From contig WRKR01000036.1 in the NCBI GenBank assembly GCA_009782175.1, forward strand, positions 1 through 32,736: DNA of 32,736 nt, written 5' to 3'. Both the position numbers and the translations under genes were made by a program. How positions within the stretch are numbered: the first letter of the stretch is position 1; each line of letters opens with the position of its first letter. Below the pieces are notes generated by a model that made no database searches, had not been told where the DNA came from, and saw only the letters and a list, made by a program, of their open reading frames with translations. Below are positions 20,309 through 24,693 of this stretch, in pieces. Source of the stretch: Cystobacterineae bacterium. GTDB taxonomy: Bacteria; Myxococcota; Myxococcia; Myxococcales; Myxococcaceae.

Positions 20309-20337
20309 TTGACAAGGCCTCAAGGCAAGGCTTATGT
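20309..20337 (+). promoter_or_regulatory. Putative promoter of the cobalamin operon
   Basis: A perfect TTGACA (20309-20314) is followed after 17-18 bp by TTATGT/TATGTG, just before the riboswitch aptamer. Position is ideal; the -10 is weak. Confidence 0.45.
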
Positions 20338-20339
20338 GG

Positions 20340-20522
20340 GGTGGCCTTTAAGTCCCATGGAGGGTCTCAAAAGGGAAGCCGGTGGAAATCCGGCGCGGTC
20401 CCGCCACTGTAACCAAGCCGGCCCAAAGCCGGGCGGGGGCTATTTGTTGTGCCACTGCGCCCACCGGGTGCGGGAAGGCATTAGCCCCCCGCTGTTGTGC
20501 TTGGAAGCCAGGAAACCTGCTT
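20340..20522 (+). ncRNA. Cobalamin riboswitch (B12 box leader)
   Basis: The hallmark core is present: AAAAGGGAAGCCGGTGGAAA near 20370-20389, then GCGGTCCCGCCACTGTAA (about 20395-20412). The closing GCCAGGAAACCTGC lies near 20507-20520. Stem P6-type CCGG pairings are visible between these. It sits directly ahead of a TonB-dependent receptor gene, as expected for B12 uptake. Ends are approximate to about 15 bases. Adenosylcobalamin or another cobalamin binding should lower expression of the three-gene operon downstream. Confidence 0.93.
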
Positions 20523-20550
20523 AGGGGTGCGCCCAAAGCGCTCCAGCCTT

Positions 20551-20569
20551 CTCTCTTCGCGGAAGAGAG
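20551..20569 (+). promoter_or_regulatory. Hairpin between riboswitch and btuB ribosome site
   Basis: Perfect 8-bp stem CTCTCTTC/GAAGAGAG with a GCG loop. It ends just before the AGAGGG ribosome site (20571-20576) and no T-run follows. It is therefore not a terminator and is more likely part of a translational expression platform; the CTCTCT arm could pair with the AGAGGG instead. Confidence 0.6.
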
Positions 20570-20579
20570 CAGAGGGCAT

Positions 20580-22604
20580 ATGTATTGGTGGGTTGTTGCC
20601 ATTTTAGCAAGGCCAATGTCTCCGGAAGCGGCAGAAGCGGCACCGCTGCGGGAGGCACAGCCCCAGCAGGCCATAACGGAGCTTTCCCCTGTCAGCGTGC
20701 CTTTGCCCCCGTTGGATTTTTCTGCCCTCGAGGGGGACAGTGCGGCTTCCTCCCGCAGTGTGGCGGTTTCTCCCTCTGTGCAAGAGGCGGGGCAGGCGAG
20801 GGAGCTTTTGTCCAAAACCGCAGGGGTACAGGTTTCAGAAAGCGGTGGCATGGGGCAGCTGCAGCGCTTGTCCGTGCGCGGAAGCGCCGGCAATGCCGTC
20901 GCCGTGCTGGTGGACGGCATGTCCTGGGGCCGCAGCGGCGAAAGTGTGGATTTGGCATTTTTGCCCATGGCCTTGCTGGAGTCGGCAACGCTGGTACGTG
21001 GGGCGGCGGCAACGCGTTTTGGCCCGGGGGCCATGGCCGGGGCGCTGCTGTTTGGGCTTGCCAAAAAAAACGAGGAGCGCCTCTTTGTAGAGCTTTTGGG
21101 TGGAAGCTTTAGCAGTATACGCGGGGTGGTGGGAGGCACGGGGAAGGCGGGGCCGGGACAGCTCAGCGCCTGGGTGGGAGCCATGCACAGCGACGGCGTC
21201 TTCCGCTTCCGCTTTAACCCCACACCCAACCTCCCCAGGGAGAGCTTTGTCTTCCAAAAACGCCGAAACAACGACGCCGACAAAGTGGACGCCATGCTGC
21301 ACTATGCCCTGCCCATTGGCCCGTGGCAGCTGGAGGCATGGACGCAGATGGGCTTCCACAAACGCGGCCTGGCAGGCGCCGTCGAAAACCCAAGCCCCAC
21401 CACCAGGCAGAAGAGCGAAAGCCTGCGCGCCTTGCTGCGTGCAGAAGGCCCGTTGGGAAAAAACTTCACCCTCAAACTCTCCGGCGCCACACAGTTTGGA
21501 CACATGCTGCTTTCGGGCGGCGGCTTCGCCGAGGGGCTTAAGCAGCGCGAAAGCAACACGGACTTTGCCTCGGACTTCAGTTGGAGAAGAGGGCCTCATG
21601 TCGTATTTGCACAAGGCAACTTTCGTCATGAGGGCCTTGTGTCCTCCCAGGCTTTTGTCTCCCGGGCTCCTGAAAAAAGCACGGCAGAGCGCTTCAGCTT
21701 TGGCGGAATGTTGGGTGGCGAGGCCTGGCTGCTTGCAGAAAAATGGGCCCTCAACGGGCTTTTTCGCATGGACAAAGCGGCGCAATTTTCAAGCCCCTCG
21801 GCCAAGCTGGGAAGCCTTTGGCTTCTGCCCTGGGGCTTTGCGCTCTCGGGCAATGCGGGCAGAAGCTTTCGCATTCCGAGTTTCTTCGAGTTATATATAG
21901 AGCAGGGGCTGGTGCGGCCCAACCCCGAGCTTTTGGCCGAAAGCGCCTGGTCCTTCGACGTGGGCCCTTCCTGGGAAAATGAAAAGGCACGCGTGTCGCT
22001 AAGCTATTTTTGGAGCCGCTTTGAAAACCTCATTGCGTGGGAATATTGGCCGCCCTTCGCCCTCAAACCCTTCAACCTCGGCAGAGCCCACACCCATGGC
22101 CTGGAGTTGGAGGCCTCCTTTGCGCCCTGGCCCTGGTTGCAGATGGAAGGGGCTTATACGTGGCTGAAAAGCAAAAACCTCCAGAGCGACCTGCGCTATG
22201 AGGGAAAGCCTCTGCCCTATCGCCCCACACACCAGCTGTTTGCACGCCTTGAGGCCGGCCCCCCATGGCTGTCGGGTTTTGTGGAGTGTCATGTCCAATC
22301 CTCACAAACCCGAAACAGCTTTGGCAACTTAAGCTGGCCCGCGCGCAGCCTTATGAATGCAGGACTCAAAAGCCAGTTGTTTAAAAACCCCAAACTGCAA
22401 CTCTCTCTCACTTTTAAAAACCTGCTGAATGTGCACACCCAGGACATGTCGGGCTATCCACTGCCGCCCCTGGGCATTTTCTTTGGCCTCTCTTTCAACC
22501 TCGACAAGGCAGCGCCACTTGCCTCTTCGCCTTTTGCTGCTTCGCCACTTCCACCGCCCTCTCTCTTTCCTCAAACACCTCACCTTTCCTTGGAGAATTT
22601 ATGA
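20580..22604 (+). CDS. btuB: TonB-dependent outer-membrane receptor, BtuB type (cobalamin)
   Basis: 674 aa. The N-terminal plug domain shows RELLSKTAGVQVSESG, RLSVRGSAGNAVAVLVDGM and ATLVRGAAATRFGPGAMAG. A 22-strand-type beta barrel follows with RSFRIPSFFELY, a strand typical of the family, and FKNLLNVHTQDMSGYPLP near the end. Substrate assignment rests on the riboswitch and the BtuF-like gene. The start at 20580 has AGAGGG upstream; the signal peptide is short and lacks a clear basic N-region. The expected last strand GLSFNL is followed by about 35 extra Pro/Ser-rich residues, unusual because barrels normally end with an aromatic residue. No clear TonB box was identified. Confidence 0.9.
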   Translation: MYWWVVAILARPMSPEAAEAAPLREAQPQQAITELSPVSVPLPPLDFSALEGDSAASSRSVAVSPSVQEAGQARELLSKTAGVQVSESGGMGQLQRLSVRGSAGNAVAVLVDGMSWGRSGESVDLAFLPMALLESATLVRGAAATRFGPGAMAGALLFGLAKKNEERLFVELLGGSFSSIRGVVGGTGKAGPGQLSAWVGAMHSDGVFRFRFNPTPNLPRESFVFQKRRNNDADKVDAMLHYALPIGPWQLEAWTQMGFHKRGLAGAVENPSPTTRQKSESLRALLRAEGPLGKNFTLKLSGATQFGHMLLSGGGFAEGLKQRESNTDFASDFSWRRGPHVVFAQGNFRHEGLVSSQAFVSRAPEKSTAERFSFGGMLGGEAWLLAEKWALNGLFRMDKAAQFSSPSAKLGSLWLLPWGFALSGNAGRSFRIPSFFELYIEQGLVRPNPELLAESAWSFDVGPSWENEKARVSLSYFWSRFENLIAWEYWPPFALKPFNLGRAHTHGLELEASFAPWPWLQMEGAYTWLKSKNLQSDLRYEGKPLPYRPTHQLFARLEAGPPWLSGFVECHVQSSQTRNSFGNLSWPARSLMNAGLKSQLFKNPKLQLSLTFKNLLNVHTQDMSGYPLPPLGIFFGLSFNLDKAAPLASSPFAASPLPPPSLFPQTPHLSLENL

Positions 22605-23863
22605 AGCTTCAACCCTACCTCCGCTGTAGCTGCCTCGGCCTCCTCGCCTTCCTCTTCGCCTGCAACAATGCCCCCTCAACCCCCCTCGTCTGCCCACCAG
22701 ATGCCGTGCAGTGCGGCAACCATTGCGCACTCCTCGAAAGCGACGTGGACCACTGCGGAGGCTGCAACCAGGCCTGCAATGCAAACCAACGCTGCGTGGA
22801 CAACCAATGCAGAGAAGTCCACTGCGAAGAAGAAAGCCACCTCTATGCCGCTTGCTTCCAAACAGGGCAAGTTTCCGTCCTCTCTACCTGTACCCAAAGC
22901 CGCTTCCACATGGCACTCGTGGGGGACAGGCCTCAGGCCATAAACGGCATGGGAGAGGTTTTGCTGGTTGCTGACGACGGCACGGAGCAGCTGTTGCGCC
23001 TTAACCCCCAAAGCCTTGAGCCCATAGGAGAGGCCGTCAGCATAGGGCAAACACCCATACATGTTTCGGCAGACGGCACCCATGCCTATGTCATCAACGC
23101 CGGAAGCCATACGCTGCAGGTGGTGGAGGGGGGCAGCTGGCAAACCATTGCAGAGTTGCCTTTCGGTGACAACACCTCGCCTCAGGCCTTCGCCCTCGTG
23201 GGCAAGCAGGGCTTTGTGCCACTCTATGGCAACCTGGTGACAGGGGAAACCAGCGCAGGCCAAAAGCTTGTCCGCATTAACCTTGAAAACCCCGCCGCCC
23301 CCGTGCGCGCAGGTGAAGTTGACTTCTCAAGCCTCTCCATTCCCCACTATGAGGGAATGGCACCCCTCCCCCTGCCCTATGACGTGCTGCACCACCAGGG
23401 CGCTCTCTATGTGGCCCTCAACAACCTCAATGCGTATTATATGCCGGCAGGCCCCGGCCTCATTGCCAAGGTGGACCCTCAAACCCTCGCGACCTCCCTC
23501 CTCTCCCTGGGGGACACTTGCACCAACGTCTCCTCCCTGGCCTCCAATGGAAAGCTGCTCGCCGCCAGCTGCGCGGGAGACTGGGGAATGAGCCCCGGCA
23601 TTGCAGGCGTGGCCCTCATTATAAATGAGGAGGTGAAAACATGGCCTGCGCCCCCCAGCTTTTCCGCGGGCGCCATGGCTTTTTCAGGCGACATGTTGTG
23701 GGTGGCCAATGCCAACGGCGGAGACGTCTATGTGTTTTCAACAAAAGAGGGAGGCCTGCATTTGCTTCGCGGAGAAGGCGGCAGCGAGGGGGAGGCCATT
23801 GCAACGTGTCCACCAGGCCCCACGGGGTATACGACCGTACAATCCCTGTGGCTAAAACCATGA
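22601..23863 (+). CDS. Cys-rich, beta-propeller lipoprotein; candidate BtuG-like B12 uptake component
   Basis: 420 aa. A lipoprotein signal ends at Cys21 (lipobox-like LFAC). Residues 31-70 carry eight Cys in a compact module (HCGGCNQACN in the middle), likely disulfide-bonded. Residues about 90-420 form beta-propeller blades of YncE style, for example GQTPIHVSADGTHAYVINAG and PYDVLHHQGALYVALNNLN. The ATG overlaps the btuB stop as ATGA with TTGGAGA upstream, and its own stop overlaps the next start the same way. It should therefore be made in step with BtuB and BtuF. BtuG of Bacteroides is a surface propeller lipoprotein that binds B12 and partners BtuB; the likeness here is inferred from fold and position only. 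Confidence 0.75.
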   Translation: MKLQPYLRCSCLGLLAFLFACNNAPSTPLVCPPDAVQCGNHCALLESDVDHCGGCNQACNANQRCVDNQCREVHCEEESHLYAACFQTGQVSVLSTCTQSRFHMALVGDRPQAINGMGEVLLVADDGTEQLLRLNPQSLEPIGEAVSIGQTPIHVSADGTHAYVINAGSHTLQVVEGGSWQTIAELPFGDNTSPQAFALVGKQGFVPLYGNLVTGETSAGQKLVRINLENPAAPVRAGEVDFSSLSIPHYEGMAPLPLPYDVLHHQGALYVALNNLNAYYMPAGPGLIAKVDPQTLATSLLSLGDTCTNVSSLASNGKLLAASCAGDWGMSPGIAGVALIINEEVKTWPAPPSFSAGAMAFSGDMLWVANANGGDVYVFSTKEGGLHLLRGEGGSEGEAIATCPPGPTGYTTVQSLWLKP

Positions 23864-24693
23864 CGGGCTTTCTCATTGCATGCTGCCTGCTGCTTTCCCC
23901 AGGCACTGTCGACAGCCTGGGGCCTGCCCCCAAGGCCCCCGTGCAGCGCATTGCAAGCCTTGCACCTTCCCTGACGCAGGCCGTTATTTTTTTGGGGGCC
24001 CAAAACAAACTGGTGGCCATTTCTCGTTTTGACGAGCAGCCCTCTTTGCAACATTTGCCCAGGGCCGGAGGGTTTTCAGACGTGGCCGTGGAAACCCTCC
24101 TCAAGCTTCGGCCTGACGTTGTTTTGGCACCCAAAGCGCCTGGCAATGAGGCCTCTGTACGGCGGCTCGCTGCGCAGGGCATTCCCATTTTGGCCTTCTC
24201 CCTCACCACCACCCAAGACGTGTGCCAGGCCATGGCTCGCTTGGGAGAGCTTTTGGAAGCCCGCGACAAAGCCCAGGCGTGGCTCTCCGCCTTCGAGGAG
24301 TTGCGCCAAAAACTGAAAACCGCCACACCTCAAAAACGCCCACGCGTCCTTTTGCTTGTGGGGCTTTCTCCTCTTGTCGCCGCGGGCCCCGGCAGCTTCG
24401 CCGACGAGCTCATTGCAGAGGCCGGAGGACACAACATTGTCCAACGCGCTCCCACCCCATTCCCTGTGGTTTCCCTGGAAAGCATTTTCAGGCACAAGCC
24501 TGACATTGTCATCAACCTGGCCGAATTCCACGAGGGCAAAAGCCAACTCCAAAACCTGCCCGGGCTTCGCAACGCCCGGTGGATAAGCGCCCCCAACAAG
24601 GACTTGCTTCAACCCGGACCTGCTTTGCTCTCCGCCTTGCTTCAGTTGGCCTCATGGTTTGACAACCCACATGTAAGCCTCTCTGCTCACTGA
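23860..24693 (+). CDS. btuF: Periplasmic cobalamin-binding protein, BtuF type
   Basis: 277 aa ABC-transporter binding protein of the BtuF/FepB-like class III family. It has a hydrophobic leader (TGFLIACCLLLSPGTVDS), then RIASLAPSLTQAVIFLG and LLKLRPDVVLAPK, typical of the N-lobe. The C-lobe shows ADELIAEAGGHNIV, VSLESIFRHKPDIVINL and the usual small C-terminal helix. It should receive B12 from BtuB and pass it to BtuCD, but no permease or ATPase gene is in the window. The ATGA overlap with the upstream gene sets the start at 23860. The leader contains LIAC, so a lipid anchor cannot be excluded. No clear terminator follows in the 207-bp gap to malQ. Confidence 0.88.
   Translation: MTGFLIACCLLLSPGTVDSLGPAPKAPVQRIASLAPSLTQAVIFLGAQNKLVAISRFDEQPSLQHLPRAGGFSDVAVETLLKLRPDVVLAPKAPGNEASVRRLAAQGIPILAFSLTTTQDVCQAMARLGELLEARDKAQAWLSAFEELRQKLKTATPQKRPRVLLLVGLSPLVAAGPGSFADELIAEAGGHNIVQRAPTPFPVVSLESIFRHKPDIVINLAEFHEGKSQLQNLPGLRNARWISAPNKDLLQPGPALLSALLQLASWFDNPHVSLSAH

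Follow-up and report, generated by a model that had tools for sequence, protein, structure and literature searches.

Our analysis points to a BtuG-like B12-capture partner of the outer membrane receptor BtuB in the Myxococcota, a phylum in which none has been reported. The candidate is a lipoprotein encoded by the middle gene of a three-gene operon headed by a cobalamin riboswitch, on a 32,736-nucleotide stretch of DNA (contig WRKR01000036.1, positions 1 to 32,736, hereafter called the window) from a Cystobacterineae bacterium. The organism belongs to the Myxococcaceae, close to the myxobacteria-like lineage guessed in the initial annotation. A link between this lipoprotein and B12 uptake is very likely, and the full capture-and-hand-over mechanism of the BtuG type, with corrinoid binding, docking on BtuB, and surface exposure as its predicted elements, is on balance probable. 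BtuG has been described as exclusive to Bacteroidetes after human gut bacteria were surveyed by BLASTP (PMC6143338), and the only literature we found joining BtuG with Myxococcota was a study of DUF4465, which lists the phylum for another B12-binding domain. If the reading is correct, a phylum-wide propeller partner of BtuB would make B12-capture lipoproteins a more general solution and would assign a role to a large gene family that has no name so far, and descent versus convergence could be tested in cultured Myxococcus and Archangium.

The operon begins with a cobalamin riboswitch aptamer (RF00174) at positions 20333 to 20538 of the forward strand, on which the other features of the operon also lie. 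It scored 84.9 bits with cmscan (E = 9e-20), passing the gathering score of 31.5. Folding of the RNA from 20516 to 20600 gave a hairpin at 20546 to 20577 that sequesters the likely Shine-Dalgarno sequence AGAGGG immediately 5' of the btuB ATG. Its folding energy is unexceptional (z = -1.15), and it is also kept in a duplicated leader ahead of a BtuH-domain gene (see below). Since the likely ribosome-binding site of btuB is paired in this candidate expression platform, translational control is suggested, and the hairpin probably acts on the translation of btuB.

The first gene, from the ATG at 20580 to the TGA at 22604, codes for a TonB-dependent outer membrane receptor of 674 amino acids with plug and barrel domains (PF00593, 1.4e-29; PF07715, 3.4e-15). 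It misses the cut-off of the BtuB model TIGR01779 (77.6 bits versus 599.7); we call it BtuB-like because of the riboswitch, the accompanying btuF gene, and its best solved relatives in the PDB, which are E. coli BtuB. The second gene (22601 to 23863) encodes the BtuG-like propeller lipoprotein of 420 amino acids, recognized from its translation, its structure model, and its conserved adjacency to btuB. The third (23860 to 24693) encodes a BtuF-like periplasmic binding protein of 277 amino acids, predicted to bind corrinoids, which is far above the cut-off of PF01497 (5.7e-26) and below the curated one of the BtuF model NF002894 (5.5e-24; 84.7 bits versus 234). Both junctions, at 22601 between btuB and the lipoprotein gene and at 23860 between the latter and btuF, consist of an ATGA overlap, so the riboswitch followed by three overlapping genes, as first annotated, was confirmed.

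The propeller gene is old and phylum-wide rather than a private oddity. The full lipoprotein was matched in 39 of 40 near relatives, some of the distant matches covering the Cys-rich module alone. A propeller-only profile found matches at 1e-10 in 130 of the 147 genomes of the class, and a broader profile at 1e-8 in 157 of 195 genomes sampled across the phylum, so the gene is neither local nor recently transferred. Recent transfer from Bacteroidota in particular was considered and rejected, since the gene occurs all across the class and its divergence is graded.

For linkage, we examined loci from 80 genomes. Their selection followed profile score and contig but took in weak matches at the class level and, with five genomes, family f11, which lies outside the class. 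In 79 of them the propeller gene is immediately preceded by a btuB-like gene in the same orientation, and the match in the 80th starts at a contig end. Where sequence beyond the propeller gene was available (77 genomes), btuF follows closely in 52, and family f11 keeps the same order of btuB, propeller gene, and btuF. Among 20 control loci of propellers similar to 6-phosphogluconolactonase (Pgl), neither btuB nor btuF was found nearby. Chance adjacency was therefore rejected (79/80 loci against 0/20 controls), and the repetition of the whole arrangement in dozens of genomes likewise excludes it. The homologs thus sit practically always beside btuB, as the proposed functional pairing had implied. 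A riboswitch precedes btuB in 37 of 42 related loci that have upstream sequence (12 of 14 named loci, 12 of 14 at the order level, and 13 of 14 additional ones at the family level); the named exceptions are L040, from Myxococcus eversor, with none, and L039, with one about 2.4 kb away. Cultured carriers of the propeller gene include M. eversor itself and M. qinghaiensis. Two propeller genes surround one btuB in a congeneric relative (L044:173-4784).

Sequence searches with the lipoprotein matched propeller repeats weakly and, beyond those, only the Cys-rich module. The AlphaFold2 model of the mature protein, built with a 21-sequence alignment, has a mean pLDDT of 91.3 and a pTM of 0.86, and together with structural matches to seven-bladed proteins it places a seven-bladed beta-propeller domain at 22838 to 23860. 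The YncE-like repeats that the initial annotation had read from the sequence are thus borne out by the modeled fold, including the predicted number of blades. In a Foldseek search of the PDB, the first match was BtuG3 (BT2095) with cyanocobalamin (2.8e-14), and all but one of ranks 3 to 15 were structures of BtuG1, BtuG2, or BtuG3, the Bacteroides uniformis homolog 3dsm being counted as BtuG. Structural alignments with BtuG gave 12 to 15% identity. With VIA-align, seven-bladed propellers matched overall at Z scores of 28 to 36, with BtuG at about 30 and several other propellers higher, at 31 to 36; several 6-phosphogluconolactonases and one archaeal propeller of the YVTN type reached 32 to 36. 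As several propellers other than BtuG outrank it, the fold match is not specific to BtuG, and the modeled fold is that of a seven-bladed YVTN-type propeller in general. Cysteines 85, 307, 324, and 403 of the propeller are invariant in the class-wide alignment. One homolog appears circularly permuted: within a single reading frame, the match to the C-terminal profile half clearly comes before that to the N-terminal half (L106:4400-5599); partial matches suggest the same for the propellers of L105, L110, L113, and L114.

The relation to BtuG was also approached through sequence profiles, using for comparison BtuG sequences of Bacteroidota drawn from plasmid annotations and further database entries. 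The curated BtuG model PF16819 did not match the window protein. When the class was scanned with this model, other loci matched, with no btuB-adjacent propeller gene among the places listed and none in the window's own genome. Membership in PF16819 was accordingly rejected, and of the initial proposal of a BtuG-like protein outside Bacteroidetes, the likeness stands (fold, lipoprotein nature, btuB adjacency, and riboswitch), without membership in the family. Profile-profile comparison gave a probability of 97.9% for BtuG (score 99.8) and 96.3% for Pgl (74.6), a modest difference. Against the PDB, the class-wide profile matched first an archaeal YVTN protein (8e-20) and second the BtuG1 and BtuG2 chains 8ptf and 8ptd (2.2e-10), with E. 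coli YncE weaker (4.5e-5). With single BtuG sequences, just 2 of 7 scored clearly above YncE and Pgl. E. coli YncE, tried as a seed for a control family, retrieved nothing in the class at 1e-10; hence, the profile control consists of Pgl-like propellers only. The predicted isoelectric points are acidic in both groups (4.1 to 5.2 in the myxobacterial propellers and 4.5 to 4.6 in three Bacteroidota BtuG sequences). From these comparisons we conclude that BtuG is among the nearest solved relatives; a shared BtuG ancestor, over and above kinship within the general propeller superfamily, is conjectural. We therefore describe the lipoprotein as BtuG-like, either very divergent or convergent, a term that denotes likeness and not family membership.

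Two accounts of its origin were weighed, both compatible with the capture mechanism. The protein could be a true, very divergent BtuG ortholog that shares its descent with that of Bacteroidota instead of deriving from an independent YVTN recruitment, to which we give somewhat less than an even chance. The profile-profile probability and the PDB matches to BtuG1/2 argue for it, as do the shared genomic partner, btuB, and the shared mode of regulation; against it, PF16819 recognizes neither the window protein nor the btuB-adjacent propeller genes of the class, Pgl gives a similar if weaker profile signal, and gene order varies, the BtuG-type gene being 5' of btuB in one record and 3' in two others as well as here. 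More tentatively still, Myxococcota might own an ancient B12-capture lipoprotein family, in which an independently recruited YVTN propeller, carried on a disulfide-rich stalk and circularly permuted in some members, would bind corrinoids and cap BtuB in convergence with Bacteroidota BtuG.

As for function, in Bacteroides, BtuG holds corrinoids in the central pocket of its propeller and forms a lid on BtuB (PMC10404256). Operon linkage, lipid anchor, propeller, and acidic charge make roles of this type a good fit for the myxobacterial protein. The surface-anchored propeller would catch corrinoids in its central pocket and hand them to BtuB, through which they would cross the outer membrane to be taken up by BtuF in the periplasm; the Cys-rich segment would serve as a disulfide-stabilized stalk joining lipid anchor and propeller, and cobalamin would repress the uptake operon via the riboswitch. 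It seems unlikely that the lipoprotein faces the periplasm instead, as a relay or scaffold passing B12 from BtuB to BtuF and with no part in capture outside the cell. Many outer membrane lipoproteins, the propeller protein BamB included, do face the periplasm, and in most loci the propeller gene sits between btuB and btuF; nevertheless, E. coli manages with BtuB and BtuF alone, a stalk rich in disulfides, with as many as five modules, suits an exposed protein, and the first structural match is a BtuG. We regard as quite improbable that the protein is an enzyme modifying corrinoids before or during uptake, for instance by upper-ligand removal or ring opening. Related propellers do include lactonases and virginiamycin B lyase, the best VIA-align matches include 6-phosphogluconolactonase-type propellers, and Pfam families of the SGL and lactonase kinds are hit; however, the hits are scattered (at most 3 of 22 members for any such family), so that no enzyme family is matched consistently, and invariance is limited to Cys, Pro, and Gly, among which no catalytic set is evident.

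Compared with BtuG1/2/3 of Bacteroides thetaiotaomicron (PF16819/DUF5074; PMC6143338, PMC10404256), the myxobacterial protein is likewise an acidic lipoprotein with a seven-bladed propeller, whose gene adjoins btuB at a locus headed by a cobalamin riboswitch, but it falls outside PF16819, carries a variable Cys-rich stalk and conserved propeller cysteines, and has a predicted B12 binding and BtuB complex. E. coli YncE is also a YVTN propeller encoded beside a TonB-dependent receptor gene, as yncE adjoins pqqU, the PQQ receptor gene (L145:1-3369). There, however, receptor and ligand differ, the genes are divergent, and there is no riboswitch operon. The BtuB/BtuF system of E. coli is alike in receptor type, binding-protein type, and cobalamin riboswitch control but lacks a propeller lipoprotein partner.

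The lipoprotein starts with a signal peptide (22601 to 22663) ending in the lipobox LFAC, with Cys21 as the predicted lipidated residue, and lipobox-type N termini were also seen in most class-level homologs inspected. It is followed by a module (22691 to 22810) with eight cysteines within residues 31 to 70 (C31, C38, C42, C52, C55, C59, C65, and C70), so both the lipoprotein assignment and the eight-Cys module of the initial annotation hold. The module resembles the MXAN_6577-like Cys-rich family (NF041328, 6.5e-10) and Stig1 (PF04885, 1.3e-4), under both curated cut-offs; the NF041328 score for one module is 39.1 bits against a cut-off of 100, a resemblance only. Its copy number among propeller homologs ranges from 0 to 5, and several order-level homologs (L105, L106, L110, L113, and L114) have just a lipoprotein-like start and the propeller. 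The module is reused elsewhere in the window genome, including in a BtuH-domain lipoprotein, and the single match among viral contigs (39 query residues) is confined to this Cys-rich part. The added N terminus singled out at first is thus present, but it is not distinctive; being generic and variable in number, the module is probably a myxobacterial linker and not part of the B12 mechanism.

The window genome (2.7 Mb, of good completeness) has no match to the CobS family, yet it encodes a MetH-like protein and one further protein that carries a B12-binding domain, so imported B12 should be needed. It also has one BtuC-like permease and two cobalamin riboswitches, and the organism looks like a B12 user reliant on uptake. 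Two members of its genus (L044 and L045) correspond to the public metagenome-assembled genomes (MAGs) Co191P4bin16 and Emb289P3bin65. A study of MAGs from termite guts that lists five Myxococcaceae (PMC7024585) uses these codes for the hosts Cornitermes sp. and Embiratermes neotenicus, from which we infer a termite-gut source for the window organism.

The second cobalamin riboswitch of this genome lies with its gene on a contig other than the window (L053:1521-3228; contig C1:61020-62727). The lipoprotein encoded by this gene (L053:1891-3228) combines a pair of Cys modules with one PKD and one BtuH domain, the latter matching the BtuG1/BtuH fusion 8blw_B (3.9e-47) and 7biz_A (1.8e-40). No full-length match to it was found in 60 relatives, two of the same genus included. 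It shares the BtuH domain with BtuH of Bacteroides (PMC8941943) but adds the two myxobacterial Cys modules, and the domain was probably acquired from Bacteroidota. Positions 20345 to 20630 of the window and 1533 to 1816 of L053 are 84% identical over 287 bp, spanning the riboswitch, the expression platform, and the first codons; the BtuH-domain gene thus seems to have been put under B12 control when the btuB leader was duplicated. Genes for TonB receptors and for BtuG/BtuH of the Bacteroides type also occur in records L141 to L144, submitted as bacteriophage scaffolds from the human gut and marked unverified, which are probably bacterial DNA. Elsewhere in the window, the heptamer ACACAGC is repeated in tandem in about 21 copies (2801 to 2965).
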